Assembly: GCF_016735595.1 (NCBI RefSeq)
Contig: NZ_JAERRB010000010.1
Span: forward strand, 186,001-250,000
Source of the DNA: Chryseolinea lacunae
GTDB taxonomy: Bacteria; Bacteroidota; Bacteroidia; Cytophagales; Cyclobacteriaceae
Length of the DNA stretch: 64,000 nt
Direction: 5' to 3'
In this document: piece by piece, positions 9,984 through 17,936 of the stretch
Layout of the letters: each line of letters starts with the position of its first letter
Numbering within the stretch: the stretch's first letter is position 1
Made by a program: the position numbers and the translations under genes
The notes under the pieces: model-generated
Database searches by the model: none
What the model was told of the DNA's origin: nothing
What the model saw: only the letters and a program-made list of their open reading frames with translations

Positions 9984-12900
9984 ATGGTGAAACTGTCTAC
10001 AATGGGTTGGTCGTTCCGAGCAATTCTCTCGTTCATTTTGTGTATCACGGGATACATTTCGATCGCACAGCAAACGTATTATGCGCGTGTGAATGGCAAC
10101 TGGACCACTGCGTCTACTTGGTCAACTTCGTCTTGCGGTGGGTCCGCTGCAACGACAACACCGGGGGCTTCGGACAACGTTATAATCTGTGCCGGCCGTA
10201 CGGTGACCTGGAACGGAGGTAATTCTACAACAGTTGCTAGCTTGGAAATTACCCCAACGGGTATTTTGACCATTAGCTCCAGTAGTAATATCTATTCGAA
10301 TTCCTTGATCTTGGATGGAACTGTTAACGGCGGGAGCAGCGGCGACCTTCGAATAAGCAATTCGGGTCCGTCCACCTTAAGTGGCGTTGGCTCGTATAGC
10401 AACACAAATACAAACAGTTATATAAGACTTCAAAATAACACAACAATCCTCGCGGGCTCTGATATTAAGTTTACAAACAACAGCCGTTTCAGTTTGAATG
10501 GTCGGACAGCCACCAACAATGGCAAAATTTCCATTTTGAACCCGTCGAATTTTACAGGCGGTGGCACGTTCGTGAATGCGGCGTCAACTTCCTATTTGCT
10601 ATATACGAGGCTGGGAAGTTTCCCTACGGGCACGACACTGACTGCAACCGCAACAGGCAACACAGTTGAATACCGTCCCGCTAACGGCAGCAGAAACATG
10701 GACGCTCAAAGCTCCTATTACAACCTCATTATTGGCGGGTCTGGGGCTACAGGAGTGTCACGCATCATCAGGACTACAACAACTATTCGGGGAAATCTTA
10801 CCATCAACGCTTCGGCGACGCTAGATATTTATCAGGGAACAAACATCAATATTGCCGGTAACTGGTCGAACAGCGGAAACTTCACCGAGCGGACCAGTTT
10901 GGTTACATTCAACGGAAGTCTGAACAACCAAACCGTTACTGCGGAGCAGTTTTATGATCTGACCATTAACAATTCATTTGCAGGAGGAACAGTTACGGCC
11001 AACGGCAACATCACGATAACTTCGGGCCGAACCCTGCGCATGACAGCCGGTGTTTTTGATATGGGAACTTTTACTCTAGGACAAACCGGTGCGGCAAGAC
11101 TTACGGCAACGGGTGGAGAACTAAGGCTTGGCAAAACCGGAACGACGCTTCCTGAATTGACGGGTACCTACAACATAACGGGCGGCACCATAACATTTAG
11201 TGGAGCAGGCAACCAAACGGTGAGGAGTTTGAACGCACCCCCGAGTAGTTATTACAATATTTCGTTTATCAACGCAGGAACAAAGACACTTGGAGGCGAC
11301 ATCAACGTCCGTGGAAACTGGACGAATACGGGACCTTCTGTGGCGGGTAACTTTACAACAACGTTTGGAGGAACCGGTGTGCAGACGATTACCAATGCTG
11401 CAGGAGAGTTGTTTTACAGAGTTACTGTAAACACAACCGGCCCCCTCACACTTGCTTCGTCAACCGACGCAACGATTTCAAATACGTTAACCCTGACATC
11501 AGGAAACATCAACCTGAACGGAAAAACATTGACGGTCGGCAATGGCGCTGCGGCCACATTGGTAAGAACGACAGGAACCGCCTATGGTGGATTCTTTAGA
11601 AGATATTTTCCAACCGTTGCGATTAGCAGCACGGCTGCTCCATTATATGGGTTGTTTCCCGTAGGTACCGCGCTTGCGTATAGACCGGTTCAAATAAATT
11701 CCACGAGCAATCCGACGACGGCTGGATACGTAACCGTGTCGCACAATGATGCCAACACAGCAACGGATGTTGCCTATACAGACAATGAATCAACGCCCAT
11801 TCAACGGGTGACGGATATGAACTCGGTGGTTTCGACAACGACGCTTGCAGGTGGCACATACACTCTAAGCGTCACGATGAATTCACTTTCCAATCAAGGG
11901 ACCGTGGCCGATTTAAGAATGGAAACTTTGGCAGGTCCTCCTTATGGGGTTGGAACTACGGTAGCCACAACCGGTACACCTGCAGCACCGACAGTGATAA
12001 GGTCGGGCCTGTCTGTTACTCAATTGAACAATTCGTTTGTGATTGGCACACGTGATAGAAGTGCTACACCCATGGTGGCATCTTATTATTCAAGAAAATC
12101 CAGCACATGGAATGATGCTACTACGGGAAACTCAACATGGTCACTGACACGTGGAGGAGTGAGTTGTAATTGTGTTCCTATTGCGTCCTCAATCGTTTAT
12201 ATCACGGCGGGGACTACAGTCAGATTATCCTCTGCAGCATCGACTGATTTTGTTTTTGTTGAATCGGGGGGTAACCTGACGGCGACAGGAGGAACGTTTA
12301 CAGTGAATTATGACCTTTCCACCCAAGGGACGGGCAGAATTACACCAACCGGGGGCACTTGGGGAGTGACCAGAAATATGACAATTTCCGGAACAAGCGT
12401 ATCCTCATCAAGTGCCCCGCTGACCATTGGAGGAAATCTTCAGATTGACGCAGGTAATAGCCTAACAATGGGAAACACTCTATCGGTTGCGGGTGACCTG
12501 GAAGTTGATGGTACTTTGGCAATGGGTGGGTCTACATTGACCCTAAGTGGTGTTAACACTACCATTACAGGAGTGACCGGAGCGGCTACCATTAGTGGAA
12601 CGGGGGCGATAAACGTCACACAATCAAAGACCATTCAGAATACGGCAGACATAACGATCGGTCCCAACATTAACCTTAGTGCCGGAATGACCATCACCAA
12701 CGGAGGTACAGTGACTCATACCGGAAGTTTGACAGGTGGATCTGCTACGTCTACGTGGGTTAACGATGTTAACGCGGTCTACAACGTTACTGGCGCGGTT
12801 ATGACCACCGGGGTACTCAACGCAAGCGCATCACCCAATACCGTCAACTATAATGGTGGCGGAGCGCAAACTGTTAAAGTGCCTCTTTCAAGTTACTACG

Positions 12901-14729
12901 ATCTTCAGATTTCAAATGCAGGCACGAAAACCACAGGCGGAGACATCGTAGTTGATAACTCCCTGACAATTCAGGATGCGGCTATATTTGATATGCTAAC
13001 AAGCACCCTGAATGGTGCTGGAGATTTGATCATGACGGGCACGTCGGAACTTGCGATTGGGAAAACCGCATCAGGAACTTACCCGGAGTTAGCGGGAGCA
13101 TATGCCTTGAGCGGTGGCACTGTCACACTTAAACAAGCCGCTGGAAATACATATGACGTGCGTCTCGTTGACTACTACAATCTCCAGCTCACGGGCAGCA
13201 ACGCGGCGACCTACAACTTCACGAATGGTGGAAATGTGACCAATAATTTGACTGTTGCGTTGGCGGGTACTGCGAAAATAGGGTCTTTAGGCGCTCCACT
13301 GAATGTGGCAAACGACTTTGTATTTAATAGTTCAAGTACAGCCACTTCGACTTTGGATAACGACGCGATCGTCGGCACATTGACAATGACTGCAGGCAGG
13401 CTGACAACAAGCGGGACTTTTACCCTTGAAATTAATGGAGCAGGTGGCTGGACATATAATGGCGGTACATTCACACAAGGGGCAACCACCAACATGCTTT
13501 TTTCAGGAGCAGCAGATCAAGCAATGGACGGTGCATTGCCCACTACAATAACGAATTTGGAGTTGAATAATTCGGGTCCCTTGGGAGTTGTTCTTGGTCA
13601 AGACATTACGGTTACTGGAACGCTGACGTTCACGTCAGGAAATCTTGTTACGTCAGGCGCAAACTTGCTTCTTCTATCAGCTACTTCGTCCATAACAGGT
13701 GTTTCGGACGATAGCTACGTAGAAGGGCCGATGCAGAAGGCTGGCGCTACCGATTTTACTTTTCCGGTAGGAAAGGATGGTGCTTACAGACCCATTACCG
13801 CAACCAGCCTGACGGCTACGGGAACCTTTCAGGCGGAATATTTCCACAGTGATCCCACGGCCTTATACAACACGGCACTGAAGGATCCGACCCTCGTGCG
13901 TGTCCAGACTGGTGAATATTGGATACTTAATGTTATTTCCGGTATCACTTCTGCATTTGTAACCCTAAGTTGGGATGCGTATTCTGGAACCGTTAATGAC
14001 TTGAGTAGCATAAAAGTGGCTCGTTGGAACGGCAGTATGTGGAAAGATCATGGAACTGCAGGTGTAACTGGAAGCGCTAGTCCGGCAACGGGAACGGTGA
14101 CGTCATCCGCGAAAGTCACCGCATTCAGTCCATTTACCCTGGCAACCGGCAACAACAACAACCCGCTTCCCGTCACCCTCGTGAGCTTCACAGCCAAACT
14201 ATTGTCGGGCGAAGTGGAGCTCGACTGGAATACTGCGACTGAAGTTGATAACGATTATTTCACCGTCGAAAAAACCAAAGACACGAAAAAGTATTCTGAA
14301 GTGTTGCGCGTGAAGGGCTCGGGAACAACCAGCATGGCTTCACACTACGGTGGCTTTGACAAAACACCGTACTCCGGTATTTCATACTATCGCCTCCGTC
14401 AAACTGACTTTGACGGCAAGACGGTGGATATCGGAATTGTTGCTGTGAACAACTCCGGGGGCTCTGAAAACCAAACGCTTTTAGTATTTCCTAACCCCGC
14501 ACGCAGCGTGCCTTTGAATGTTAACCTGAGAGGATACGGCGCGAATGAAGATGTGACACTAGATTTGAGAGATATCAAAGGATTGTCGATTTTATCCAAG
14601 GTTTTGACCACTGAGAACACAGGGGAATTGATTTACGCGATTGACACCACCTCGATTACTCCCGGGGTTTACATCCTGACGGTGCGTGGCAGTCATGGAC
14701 CTGCAAGTGTGAAGGTAGTTGTTCAATAG
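9984..14729 (+). CDS. Giant T9SS-exported surface protein with beta-helix-like repeats and type A sorting domain
   Basis: A 1581-residue protein. A signal peptide ends near ISIAQQ. The body is low in Cys and rich in Thr/Ser/Gly/Asn, with repeating units of the form SSYYNL-I-NAGTKTLGGDI-V-GN (near residues 425-440 and 970-985, with weaker ones elsewhere), suggesting a long solenoid. A module of the type NGNWTTASTWS...CxC occurs at the N-terminus and again near residue 690 (KSSTWNDATTGNSTWS). The C-terminus has a beta-rich region, then LVFPNPARS and a domain ending GVYILTVRG, a type A T9SS sorting signal. It is expected at the cell surface as an adhesin or matrix protein. A terminator follows directly. 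No ligand can be assigned. Confidence 0.88.
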   Translation: MVKLSTMGWSFRAILSFILCITGYISIAQQTYYARVNGNWTTASTWSTSSCGGSAATTTPGASDNVIICAGRTVTWNGGNSTTVASLEITPTGILTISSSSNIYSNSLILDGTVNGGSSGDLRISNSGPSTLSGVGSYSNTNTNSYIRLQNNTTILAGSDIKFTNNSRFSLNGRTATNNGKISILNPSNFTGGGTFVNAASTSYLLYTRLGSFPTGTTLTATATGNTVEYRPANGSRNMDAQSSYYNLIIGGSGATGVSRIIRTTTTIRGNLTINASATLDIYQGTNINIAGNWSNSGNFTERTSLVTFNGSLNNQTVTAEQFYDLTINNSFAGGTVTANGNITITSGRTLRMTAGVFDMGTFTLGQTGAARLTATGGELRLGKTGTTLPELTGTYNITGGTITFSGAGNQTVRSLNAPPSSYYNISFINAGTKTLGGDINVRGNWTNTGPSVAGNFTTTFGGTGVQTITNAAGELFYRVTVNTTGPLTLASSTDATISNTLTLTSGNINLNGKTLTVGNGAAATLVRTTGTAYGGFFRRYFPTVAISSTAAPLYGLFPVGTALAYRPVQINSTSNPTTAGYVTVSHNDANTATDVAYTDNESTPIQRVTDMNSVVSTTTLAGGTYTLSVTMNSLSNQGTVADLRMETLAGPPYGVGTTVATTGTPAAPTVIRSGLSVTQLNNSFVIGTRDRSATPMVASYYSRKSSTWNDATTGNSTWSLTRGGVSCNCVPIASSIVYITAGTTVRLSSAASTDFVFVESGGNLTATGGTFTVNYDLSTQGTGRITPTGGTWGVTRNMTISGTSVSSSSAPLTIGGNLQIDAGNSLTMGNTLSVAGDLEVDGTLAMGGSTLTLSGVNTTITGVTGAATISGTGAINVTQSKTIQNTADITIGPNINLSAGMTITNGGTVTHTGSLTGGSATSTWVNDVNAVYNVTGAVMTTGVLNASASPNTVNYNGGGAQTVKVPLSSYYDLQISNAGTKTTGGDIVVDNSLTIQDAAIFDMLTSTLNGAGDLIMTGTSELAIGKTASGTYPELAGAYALSGGTVTLKQAAGNTYDVRLVDYYNLQLTGSNAATYNFTNGGNVTNNLTVALAGTAKIGSLGAPLNVANDFVFNSSSTATSTLDNDAIVGTLTMTAGRLTTSGTFTLEINGAGGWTYNGGTFTQGATTNMLFSGAADQAMDGALPTTITNLELNNSGPLGVVLGQDITVTGTLTFTSGNLVTSGANLLLLSATSSITGVSDDSYVEGPMQKAGATDFTFPVGKDGAYRPITATSLTATGTFQAEYFHSDPTALYNTALKDPTLVRVQTGEYWILNVISGITSAFVTLSWDAYSGTVNDLSSIKVARWNGSMWKDHGTAGVTGSASPATGTVTSSAKVTAFSPFTLATGNNNNPLPVTLVSFTAKLLSGEVELDWNTATEVDNDYFTVEKTKDTKKYSEVLRVKGSGTTSMASHYGGFDKTPYSGISYYRLRQTDFDGKTVDIGIVAVNNSGGSENQTLLVFPNPARSVPLNVNLRGYGANEDVTLDLRDIKGLSILSKVLTTENTGELIYAIDTTSITPGVYILTVRGSHGPASVKVVVQ

Positions 14730-14789: not shown

Positions 14790-14939
14790 GTTGGGGTAGT
14801 GGAGAAGAATGCAAAATGTGAAAAAAATGGGCCTTACGGTGAAAACGATTAGGTTTTGATTTTCAGTGAATTGAGTGTGTTGTGCTTGGAAGGACGATGA
14901 GGTAAAAAATACACCCGCAGCGTTATGCGAAAAAATAAT

Positions 14940-14971
14940 TTTGCGATCCCTTGAGGGTTTGAATTACTTTG
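14940..14971 (+). promoter_or_regulatory. Promoter of the HsdS/HsdM-like operon
   Basis: TTTG at 14940-14943 and TTACTTTG at 14964-14971 are separated by 20 bp, close to the Bacteroidota -33/-7 promoter pattern (TTTG and TAnnTTTG, one mismatch). The ATG of the first gene lies 18 bp after the -7 box. With the terminator upstream, this makes the operon an independent transcription unit. Confidence 0.5.
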
Positions 14972-14989: not shown

Positions 14990-15580
14990 ATGATAGCAAC
15001 CTGTCCAATAAATAGTCTGCTGATAAAAATTTTCTCAGGCTACTCTTTCCGACGTAGAATTATACACGATGACGATGGTGACCTTCGCGTTATTCAAATG
15101 AAGGACCTGATGCATCACTATTCGGCCATAAAAATCAGTGGTCTTACGCGGGTTTATTCGGAGAACCTTGAACGAAAAACATTGTTGGCTAAGGGAGATG
15201 TGTTGCTGGTTGCTAAGGGGGCGCACAATTGTGCGTTGGAGTATGATTTGAATTTGCCTATGGCTATCGCCTCGTCTGCGTTTTTTGTTCTGCGACCGGA
15301 TCCGGAGAAGGTTTTGCCTGCGTATCTCGCGTGGTATTTGAATCAATCGAACGTTCAGAATTTCTTTGCGGCTAACCAATCAGGATCGTACATGCTCAGT
15401 GTGGCGAAGACCACGCTTGAGCGCGTCACGGTGCAATTACCTTCACGTGAGATTCAGGAAAAGATTGTTGCGGTTGACAAACTTGTGAGAAAGGAAGGCC
15501 TTCTGATGCAATCGATCATGCAAAAGAAAAAGATGTTGGTTACCTCGGCGCTGATGAAACTTGTTGATAAAAAAGTATGA
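14990..15580 (+). CDS. Half-size HsdS-like DNA specificity subunit (single TRD)
   Basis: About 196 residues with one target-recognition-domain unit. A recognisable HsdS start (IKIFSGYSFRRR, with a VIQMKDL strand) is followed by LLAKGDVLLVAKGA, then the HsdS pattern in which residues near LPAYLAWYLNQ precede SGSYMLSVAKTTLERVTVQL and REIQEKIVAVDKLV, ending in one long helix. Type I S subunits normally have two such units in about 400 residues, so this is half a subunit and may dimerise. A TTG at 14969 extends the frame but ATG 14990 fits the promoter. It overlaps the HsdM-like gene by ATGA. The role is DNA recognition by homology; the sequence recognised cannot be read. Confidence 0.8.
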   Translation: MIATCPINSLLIKIFSGYSFRRRIIHDDDGDLRVIQMKDLMHHYSAIKISGLTRVYSENLERKTLLAKGDVLLVAKGAHNCALEYDLNLPMAIASSAFFVLRPDPEKVLPAYLAWYLNQSNVQNFFAANQSGSYMLSVAKTTLERVTVQLPSREIQEKIVAVDKLVRKEGLLMQSIMQKKKMLVTSALMKLVDKKV

Positions 15581-17637
15581 GCACGGAAAAGAGCAAGATC
15601 GGAGCTGCATTAGATTTGGCTGATGAAACGTTTCGTGCCAGCGAAGATTCATGGCTGAAATTGCAGGGAGTGCTGGCAATTTTTCTGCTGCGCTATATGA
15701 GTGATCTTTGGCATGATACACATGAGCGTGCGAAAGAACAGTTTGGTAGCGATGAAGCATGGATTCAACGCAAGATGAAGCGTGTGAGATTTTTAATGCC
15801 TCCCGGAAATGATATTGATTCGTTGGTTAGCGGCGCTAGATATTCTTCGGTGAGTGCCGCCACGGACGCCGTGTTTCAGCATATTGCTAAGGAGAATTCT
15901 GAAAACATGAAGGATGTTTTTAATAGTTTGATTTTTGATTCAGAGGCTTTTGGTAAAACGCGAGAAAGGGACCAGAGGTTAAAAAGACTTTTGGTGGATT
16001 TGTCGGGACGGAGTTGGAGCACTCAGCTTTTGCATGGAAATGACGTTGGAAGTGCTGCGTTGAATCTCATCGATAGATTCTTTGAAACCTCGTTGTCGCA
16101 CGGGGGGAACCATACGCCATCGGCCGTTTCCGAATTGGTTGCCAAGCTATTGGACCCGCAGCCGGGCATGCGGATATATGACCCCTTTCTGGGCACAGGT
16201 TCGTTGCTGGTGGCCATGGCGAAACAGGTCAAGGACCGTGATGGACATCCGTCGCGCAATTTTGCGCTGTACGGCCAGGAGGTTAATCGCGATGCGTGGG
16301 TTACAGCCAAGCTTAATATGTTTCTTAATAGTCTTGACGATGCCAGAATTGCCTTTGGTGATACGTTGAAGAAACCTGCACACCTTGAAAACAACAACCT
16401 CATGTTGTTTGAGCGCGTGGGCAGTTCCCTTCCGTTCACAGCCACGGTGGTCACCTCAGAGGAAGCAAGGCGCGATGTGTTCCAACGTTTTGGGTATGGC
16501 TTTCCCGCCAAGGGCAAAAGCGAATGGGCTTATATGCTGCACATCGTCTCAGCAATAGCACCCGGAGGAATGGGTGTTGTTGTGGTTCCGCAGGGAGCAT
16601 TGTTTCGGGGGCGCCAGGAGAAGAAGATTCGGGAAAGGCTTGTCGCAAAAAATCTCGTTGATGCCGTGATTGAATTGCCGCCGCGTTTGTTTTTTGGACG
16701 CACAACGCCCATGGCAATTCTTGTTTTCAGAAAGAACCGGAAGAGTAAGAATATTTTGTTTGTAGATGCCAGCCGTGAATTTCTGGCGGGGAAGGCTCAA
16801 AATTCGTTGCGATCGGAAGACATCGAGAAAATAGTGGGAGTTTGCCGTGAGCGGGAATTTATGCCGCAGTATTCGCGACTTGTTCCTGTCGATGACGTGA
16901 AGCAGGAACAATGTAATCTTAGTGTTGCACGCTATGTCAACAGAAAAGCGCTGTTCGAGGACGAATCGGAAATCATATCAAGGAATGAGGAAATGGAGCA
17001 GTTGGAGGATGCGTTGCAAGAGGTAAGGGTTGAGATCAAATCGAAGCTTGCCGAGTTGGCGATCTATGGCCTCGACGACATCAATCTGACCAAGGCCACC
17101 GACGGGGCTCTTCTTTATGTCTCTCCGATGATCGCAGCGGCTAATCGGCTGGCGTATCGGTTGAGAAAACTCCTTCACGAAGCTGGAGAAGATAATGCTG
17201 TTACATTGAGCCATCACCGCAGGCTGGATGCTATTGTGGACGCCTATCGGCAGGAAAAAATTGGAGGGGAGGAATACTTGCAGCGTGTTCTGGCGATAAA
17301 GGGAGATGTGGAAGCGTATTGCTATGGAACATTTCCAGCATCCGTCAGGTATGGCGAGGATACGCGGACGTTGTTTGGAATTTTGTCGTCGATGTTATTG
17401 GAGGCCGATCAGGATCCTGTTGAGGCTAATCTGGAAGAGTTGGTTCATCGTGTAGTAGATGTGTTGCAGCGATCGGCTGTTCGCGATTGGAGCTCCGCTA
17501 TAAATCATATTAAGGAAACTCAGGGAAAGCTTGAGGATATTTTGCGGGTTGATCAGGGGCAACTTCGAAGATCGGTACGTTGGGATCTGCTTGTTGAGCA
17601 GTGCATCGAAGCAGGAAAGGATTACTATCACTTATAA
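15577..17637 (+). CDS. HsdM-like N6-adenine methyltransferase homologue lacking NPP(F/Y), with HsdR-C-like extension
   Basis: A 686-residue HsdM homologue. Residues 1-150 match the helical HsdM N-domain. Then come HTPSAVSELVAKLL, SAM motif I as DPFLGTG (202-208), GQEVNRD (233-239), GDTLKKP and, later, VVVVPQGALFRGRQEKKIR and ILFVDASREF, all in HsdM order. Where type I methylases have NPPF/Y (catalytic motif IV) this protein reads VVTSEEARRD (about 291-300), with nothing like NPP nearby. The lost motif argues against normal adenine methylation. Residues about 500-686, after a coiled segment, resemble the C-terminal helical domain of HsdR that docks on the methylase (EELVHRVVDVLQRSAVRDW). The ATG overlaps the hsdS-like stop. 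No motor or nuclease domain is present. Confidence 0.82.
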   Translation: MSTEKSKIGAALDLADETFRASEDSWLKLQGVLAIFLLRYMSDLWHDTHERAKEQFGSDEAWIQRKMKRVRFLMPPGNDIDSLVSGARYSSVSAATDAVFQHIAKENSENMKDVFNSLIFDSEAFGKTRERDQRLKRLLVDLSGRSWSTQLLHGNDVGSAALNLIDRFFETSLSHGGNHTPSAVSELVAKLLDPQPGMRIYDPFLGTGSLLVAMAKQVKDRDGHPSRNFALYGQEVNRDAWVTAKLNMFLNSLDDARIAFGDTLKKPAHLENNNLMLFERVGSSLPFTATVVTSEEARRDVFQRFGYGFPAKGKSEWAYMLHIVSAIAPGGMGVVVVPQGALFRGRQEKKIRERLVAKNLVDAVIELPPRLFFGRTTPMAILVFRKNRKSKNILFVDASREFLAGKAQNSLRSEDIEKIVGVCREREFMPQYSRLVPVDDVKQEQCNLSVARYVNRKALFEDESEIISRNEEMEQLEDALQEVRVEIKSKLAELAIYGLDDINLTKATDGALLYVSPMIAAANRLAYRLRKLLHEAGEDNAVTLSHHRRLDAIVDAYRQEKIGGEEYLQRVLAIKGDVEAYCYGTFPASVRYGEDTRTLFGILSSMLLEADQDPVEANLEELVHRVVDVLQRSAVRDWSSAINHIKETQGKLEDILRVDQGQLRRSVRWDLLVEQCIEAGKDYYHL

Positions 17638-17663: not shown

Positions 17664-17936
17664 ATGGATGAACATCAAGACAAGATGGTTTTTAAAATTG
17701 AATCTTCGTCAAAATTAACGGTGGAGATTATTGCAGAGTTCGAACGCTTGTTGGAATCGGCCACGCCGGAAGAATACAGGGATACGCTGATGGAGATTTA
17801 TCACCTCTACCTCATCTATGAACACGGAAATTTGCCGCTGAATTTTGATGAGATGGCATCACAAATGTATACTCTCACGGAGTTTCTGCGAAGGGTGGAG
17901 GCGGAGATCCGGAAGAAGAACACAGACCCTTCGTGA
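17664..17936 (+). CDS. Small acidic helical protein, third gene of the HsdS/HsdM-like operon
   Basis: A 90-residue protein I do not recognise. It is acidic (many Glu/Asp) and predicted helical, with LTVEIIAEFERLLES and TEFLRRVEAEIRKK as amphipathic helices; it has no signal peptide or membrane segment. It begins 26 bp after the HsdM-like gene on the same strand, before a convergent ABC-F gene, so it is probably co-transcribed and could be an accessory or regulatory partner. It could equally be an unrelated small protein; only the position supports the link. Confidence 0.65.
   Translation: MDEHQDKMVFKIESSSKLTVEIIAEFERLLESATPEEYRDTLMEIYHLYLIYEHGNLPLNFDEMASQMYTLTEFLRRVEAEIRKKNTDPS

Follow-up and report, generated by a model that had tools for sequence, protein, structure and literature searches.

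A half-HsdS/HsdM pair without the catalytic motif IV in Chryseolinea lacunae, a candidate non-methylating DNA-binding module

Can the modification subunit of a type I restriction system be kept after its catalytic motif has gone? The question is raised by a locus in a 64,000-nucleotide stretch of Chryseolinea lacunae (positions 186,001 to 250,000 of contig NZ_JAERRB010000010.1, assembly GCF_016735595.1; hereafter the window), where a gene for an HsdM homologue (M) directly follows a gene for a half-HsdS (half-S), i.e., a specificity subunit with a single target recognition domain (TRD). The catalytic motif IV of the HsdM homologue, NPP(F/Y), is missing (Table 1). With moderate confidence we propose that the two proteins form a domesticated complex that binds DNA sequence-specifically without methylating it and probably regulates its own promoter.

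The hsdM gene is a single uninterrupted frame of 686 codons, and the intact order of HsdM motifs recognized in an initial annotation of the sequence is present as described, including motif I for binding of S-adenosylmethionine (SAM). The protein retains HTPSAV, DPFLGTG, GQE, GDTL, VVVPQG and FVDASREF. Pfam families N6_Mtase (PF02384, 233.6 bits) and HsdM_N (PF12161, 29.5 bits) both score above cut-off, and PacII M1 is the best match among solved structures, by a PDB sequence search as well as by predicted fold (TM-score 0.79, by target length). The score against the NCBIfam equivalog TIGR00497 was 180.5 bits, under the curated cut-off of 242.75. Identity with MAD2 of MADS was rejected (NF047738, 32 bits against a cut-off of 720). 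Two weaker N6_Mtase matches (61.9 and 27.7 bits) occur elsewhere in this genome (G000).

The protein contains no NPP(F/Y), nor the NPP(F/Y/W) used here to recognize an active enzyme. The initial annotation was right about this loss and misplaced its site, which it put at TSEE. In alignments to PacII M1, EcoR124I HsdM and relatives with NPPF, this motif stands opposite SLPF; the catalytic Asn has become Ser and the first Pro Leu, and the second Pro and the Phe are kept. TSEE (residues 293-296, nucleotides 16453-16464) starts 9 residues past SLPF and aligns with the stretch after motif IV, which is of the KWGHE type in canonical enzymes and reads TVEE or TAEE in two Chryseolinea relatives, so that the alignments rule it out as the motif IV position. 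Judged from these comparisons, the protein is an intact HsdM homologue that has lost motif IV, and it is probably catalytically dead. The loss is no chance misreading, because two congeneric and two sister-genus genomes also lack the motif.

The partner gene overlaps the start of hsdM by 4 nt. Its product was identified as a half-HsdS by Pfam (Methylase_S, 27.5 bits) and PADLOC (Specificity_I), and alignment with relatives supports ATG 14990 as the likely start, downstream of the TTG at 14969 in the list of open reading frames (ORFs). In a profile search it resembles HsdS chains and the chains of PDB entries 8vsq and 8vsr (198-206 aa, E-values of 3.4e-10 and 4e-10), named 'Esub1' by the depositor; the search of open-licence papers gave no relevant paper on these entries.

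Loss of motif IV recurs. The half-S/M pair is present in three of six Chryseolinea genomes, with motif IV reading GALPL in C. serpens and GAPPM in G136, and the sister-genus loci of Parachryseolinea silvisoli and Dawidia soli read ANLMI and ANLML, respectively. A separate clade in a Cytophagales family, here called f5, has H/Q-PPF/Y at this place; M occurs there as one copy in each of eight genomes (8/8 at E <= 1e-50; the match in G272 holds one TAA), and the motif could be read in all eight, with AQPPF in G298. Two loci from metagenome-assembled genomes read SHPPF (L066) and ARPSF (L069). In a tree of 36 M proteins from which the motif columns were left out, the degenerate proteins lie on long branches in at least three lineages: 1.21 for the window, 0.94 for the stem of C. 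serpens and G136, 2.2 for the Parachryseolinea/Dawidia stem, 1.91 for the f5 stem, 1.72 for L066 and 0.97 for L069. End branches of the proteins with NPP(F/Y) measure 0.07-0.44 in 19 of 21 cases and about 1 in two (L103 and L104).

The f5 loci (L132-L138 and L172-L179) are two-gene operons of a half-S and an H/Q-PPF HsdM, with flanks that, inspected by eye, are common within genera in part only. One type I operon that includes a full HsdS has an HsdM with NMPF (L070:1551-3044). A first contig scan with P0001 as query gave 35 stretches, none of which was confirmed.

Degenerate loci also differ from systems with NPPF in what surrounds them. The stretches fetched were searched with three HsdR references and an eleven-member profile of full HsdS, which may overlook other types. 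None of 14 degenerate loci (L133 with only 1.9 kb in view beyond M) has a full HsdS or HsdR nearby, as against 38 of 45 NPPF loci that do. The latter derive from 47 loci and 9 larger regions, 45 of which had NPP(F/Y/W); L070, L097 (motif masked, with S and R) and the fragments L067, L081, L076 and L101 belong to neither group. Where at least 3 kb beyond M was in view, S and/or R was found in 37 of 38 NPPF loci; among the seven without them, L042 has room and the other six end within 0.5 kb past M or inside M. An earlier census had S or R in 28 of 30 NPPF loci; its Fisher p of 1e-9 comes from related rows and is not leaned on. Operons with a half-S and an NPPF-bearing M, which the initial annotation named as evidence against its proposal, are widespread, and because of this uneven occurrence of S and R we read them as more likely the ancestral state than a refutation. 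A half-HsdS directly 5' of hsdM was also seen in type I systems with a full HsdS from many phyla (L037-L044 and L059-L104).

Around the window locus, the 15-kb stretch examined holds one M only, no second M or two-TRD S as in the PacII-type M1M2S arrangement, no HsdS other than the half-S, and no HsdR by the three references. HSDR_N (PF04313) does not exceed its cut-off in G000, G163 or G136, with one match below cut-off in G000 in a 154-aa frame, and it does so in 8 of the 12 genomes queried, including G177, G156 and f5 genomes.

The ratio of nonsynonymous to synonymous substitution rates (dN/dS, NG86 method) is low in the degenerate genes. Between C. serpens and G136 it is 0.096 for half-S, 0.183 for M and 0.129 for the small protein encoded downstream; values are 0.19 and 0.21 for half-S and M of Parachryseolinea and Dawidia, and 0.036 and 0.026 for the f5 pair G233 and G218. 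The genes are thus under purifying selection and are no pseudogenes, given these ratios of 0.026-0.21 for M and 0.036-0.19 for half-S. The distribution of constraint between the subunits is reversed as well. Within lineages, all 25 degenerate pairs have a half-S that is more conserved than M, by 18.6 points on average; between lineages this applies to 61 of 66 pairs, all five exceptions involving L069. Together these are all 91 pairs of 14 loci, and 14 pairs chosen earlier gave 14/14. NPPF loci show the opposite in every one of 120 pairs, by a mean of 31 points; these pairs come from 16 loci, i.e., 19 less L074, L092 and L094, in which half-S was undetected. The pairs are non-independent and the reversal is consistent. 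By these comparisons, recognition diverges faster than catalysis in active systems, whereas in degenerate loci recognition is held and the catalytic subunit drifts.

Upstream of the half-S gene, a candidate operator was found. Eight loci fit its consensus, CAYC-N6-RTTATGY with constant spacing, with a start 50-79 bp ahead of half-S: the window, L031-L034, and L059, L060 and L063, three of the eight being NPPF systems (the distance in L060 was counted from the aligned ATG). Among 32 half-S upstream regions, exactly those of the closest half-S group, the same eight, match with 0 mismatches and the other 24 have at least two; shuffled upstream regions matched perfectly in 11 of 6400 cases. Some NPPF loci (L060, L063 and L168) have a second copy near the start codon, recognized in L168 by its ATTATGT core. 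In locus L170, about 4-98 bp upstream of half-S, there are two copies of CATTACGC near the places of the relatives' two copies, as if both element sites had changed together. L171, from another half-S group, has no match to the element. L166 and L167 repeat L059 and L060 and are non-independent, and L168 is the same locus as L018. Two other patterns were rejected. Palindromes common to the f5 operon upstream regions were not above shuffles (6/7 loci; L137, a near copy, left out). TTATGC-N13-15-GCATAA occurs once each in G163 and G136 at the operon, once in the window genome at another place, and in none of three other congeners, and its reversed control hits three genomes.

This element and an HsdR-like C-terminal region of about 170 aa in the window HsdM were not part of the initial annotation. 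A profile of HsdR C-termini (13 rows from 12 distinct loci, 3 rows from relatives; L055-L057 dropped as too short) matched the tail in an hmmsearch with 28.7 bits and an E-value of 4.3e-8 in a set of 726 sequences, which comprised 500 shuffles, one reversed copy and the ORFs, with true HsdRs among them, of the window and L031-L044. The best shuffle scored 10.1 bits, Parachryseolinea 11.8 and Dawidia 4.9. Global hhalign gave 96% and the local mode, run with three HsdR rows, 1.5%. No HsdR domain was recognized in the tail by Pfam or NCBIfam, a PDB profile search gave no HsdR chain, and pairwise global alignment with HsdR reached a z of about 3, with shuffles sometimes higher. Homology of the tail to the HsdR C-terminus is thus likely, not settled. 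According to excerpts of PMC5248579, the helical domain at the C-terminus of EcoR124I HsdR presumably assembles with HsdM.

The most consistent explanation would be as follows. The half-HsdS, with its one TRD, and the HsdM scaffold would form a complex that recognizes a specific DNA sequence but, having lost the catalytic Asn-Pro-Pro-Phe, would leave it unmethylated. The HsdM probably still binds SAM, in a structural or allosteric capacity. Nuclease and motor of HsdR are absent nearby, although the window HsdM carries a fused piece resembling the HsdR C-terminus. The complex most likely binds CAYC-N6-RTTATGY beside its own promoter and would act as a non-modifying DNA-binding regulator, analogous to a nuclease-dead Cas protein. 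A non-methylating role together with the HsdS-like partner, already suggested by the initial annotation, is supported by the recurrent motif loss, the purifying selection and the stronger conservation of half-S than of M; 'sensing or scaffolding', as it was worded there, is better specified as sequence-specific DNA binding, probably for autoregulation.

As a tentative generalization, Cytophagales may have repeatedly turned type I methyltransferases into non-modifying regulators. The dedicated half-S/M of full systems would already read a conserved bipartite site at its own promoter; in several lineages this sub-module would have outlived the restriction enzyme, lost catalysis and become a selected pair, core in one family and with an HsdR-derived tail in one branch. 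The parts are already known, and the new aspect is the recurrent, selected, apparently non-methylating module; no report of an HsdM/half-HsdS module lacking motif IV was found among open-licence papers. If correct, this would be a route from restriction recognition machinery to a regulator in which DNA recognition is conserved and the chemistry discarded, and the half-HsdS genes that precede hsdM in many type I loci would gain a testable function. The hosts are environmental and culturable, and the element and two genes are amenable to direct tests.

Several observations weigh against the proposed autoregulatory complex. The element pattern was derived from the eight loci in which it was counted. 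In three further loci, one-mismatch matches were present in two, L168 (at -76) and L169 (at -3, with two mismatches at -71), for each of which 4 of 500 shuffles do as well, and L170 has no element (best 3 mismatches). Among the 32 upstream regions, the element is also missing from the f5 loci and the other half-S groups. A single TRD should recognize a palindrome when it dimerizes; the element, as read here, is non-palindromic, which speaks against a simple homodimer. It is not clearly enriched genome-wide and indicates no wider regulon: counts on both strands for the element vs the reversed pattern were 21 v 12 in G000, 17 v 22 in G163, 15 v 27 in G136, 10 v 33 in G177, 18 v 24 in G156 and 9 v 7 in G168. 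Because of this lack of clear enrichment, the element is better explained by a local role in autoregulation than by a regulon. The module is patchy in the genus; the three Chryseolinea genomes without the pair have no close M and no half-S at E <= 1e-38, and G015 has a different HsdM. In the tree, the window joins C. serpens and G136 with an SH-aLRT (approximate likelihood-ratio test) support of 93, below the 95 mark. The tail was not found in C. serpens and G136 (<1 bit), so that it is not essential, and its structural model (pLDDT, a predicted per-residue confidence, of 73), partly circular in being built with HsdR rows, matches no HsdR structure and nothing in the PDB at E <= 0.001.

The element could be bound by another regulator, for instance an XRE or RptR-like protein, with half-S/M doing something else. 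We regard this as rather unlikely, although it is the likeliest of the alternatives. In Parachryseolinea and Dawidia (L033/L034) the half-S operon comes after an XRE-like gene, and type I systems can have a small repressor dedicated to them, as excerpts of PMC12255303 describe for RptR and its promoter direct repeats. However, inspection by eye gave no regulator gene common to the element-bearing neighbourhoods, and the element follows the closest half-S group, the other half-S loci being without it.

It is unlikely that the pair is a component of defence or sensing rather than a transcriptional regulator, e.g., an anti-restriction decoy, a phage sensor or the partner of an effector such as the 90-aa protein. 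Its ancestry in restriction systems, an HsdR-like tail that could be a docking surface and the frequent location of the 90-aa family beside XRE-like genes would agree with such a function, whereas the ORF lists, read by eye and with no homology search of all neighbours, show no effector common to all degenerate loci and no defence-island neighbours.

It is improbable that the protein still methylates by means of an unusual motif IV (SLPF, or H/Q-PPF in f5). Some N4-methylcytosine (m4C) enzymes have Ser at the motif IV place, the window protein preserves its fold along with motif I and the GQE region, and f5 retains PPF/PPY after H/Q at a dN/dS of 0.026. Against this, GALPL, GAPPM and ANLMI/ANLML have no alternative motif in common. 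Furthermore, excerpts of PMC9613975 give Asn for both PacII subunits, with NPPF in M1 for N6-methyladenine and NPPY in M2 for m4C, and on both counts an m4C-type Ser motif was held unlikely.

Decay of a restriction system, with R and full S lost and M a relic drifting to a pseudogene, is the least probable explanation: the long branches, the lower identity of M than of S, the variation of motif IV within one genus and the absence from three of six congeneric genomes would suit it, but the frames are intact with an M dN/dS of 0.026-0.21, flanks are common within genera, half-S is conserved and the f5 M is single-copy in 8/8 genomes.

Compared with type I systems that have half-S, M, full S and R, such as L059 of Fulvivirga imtechensis, the window module has the same HsdM fold, motif order and position of half-S upstream of M, and the type I relatives L059, L060 and L063 have the same upstream element. 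It differs by the absence of NPPF and of a nearby full HsdS or HsdR, by a half-S that is more conserved than M and by the HsdR-like tail. PacII M1M2S (PDB 7vru/7vs4), the closest solved structure, has two M subunits and a two-TRD S, as given in excerpts of PMC9613975. Engineered half-HsdS proteins (the SauSTORF499P CC398-1 half-S and EcoR124I-NT) show that a single-TRD S works with M, and the excerpted reports (PMC6158711, PMC2877798) describe them as reading symmetric targets when paired with M. These engineered enzymes are catalytically active, whereas the window module is natural and has lost the active-site motif. For RptR, a conserved site upstream of a type I-related operon likewise tracks a regulator (PMC12255303, in excerpts); RptR is a small separate repressor, and here the candidate binder is the half-S/M pair itself.

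Table 1. Position and basis of the features described in the window
Feature	Coordinates	Strand	Details
HsdM homologue, motif IV lost	15577..17637	+	686 aa; Pfam, PDB sequence search, predicted fold
SAM-binding motif I DPFLGTG, kept	16180..16200	+	aa 202-208; fits DPxxGxG
Motif IV position by alignment, SLPF for NPPF	16426..16437	+	aa 284-287
Region resembling HsdR C-terminal domain	17131..17628	+	about aa 519-684; sequence profile only
Half-HsdS, single TRD	14990..15580	+	196 aa from ATG 14990; Pfam, PADLOC, alignment, PDB profile
Candidate operator, CACC-N6-GTTATGC	14912..14928	+	starts 78 bp 5' of half-HsdS start codon
90-aa small protein	17664..17936	+	downstream of hsdM in three Chryseolinea loci; paralogous family

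Flanking genes are common to the loci within Chryseolinea and within the Parachryseolinea/Dawidia pair. The same three genes, after a similar gene of about 1580 codons, are found in C. serpens DSM 24574 (L031, same contig as L058) and in G136 (L032); half-S is 61-62% identical to its counterpart in the window, the small protein 55-56% and M 37-39%. The paralogous family of the 90-aa protein gave six matches each in the window genome and G136, and several copies adjoin genes named by eye as XRE-like (L153, L155, L157 and L158). The gene preceding the operon in the window (9984-14729) encodes a 1581-aa repeat-rich, probably secreted protein, with a counterpart at the equivalent place in C. serpens and G136. 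Its C-terminus resembles a type IX secretion sorting domain.

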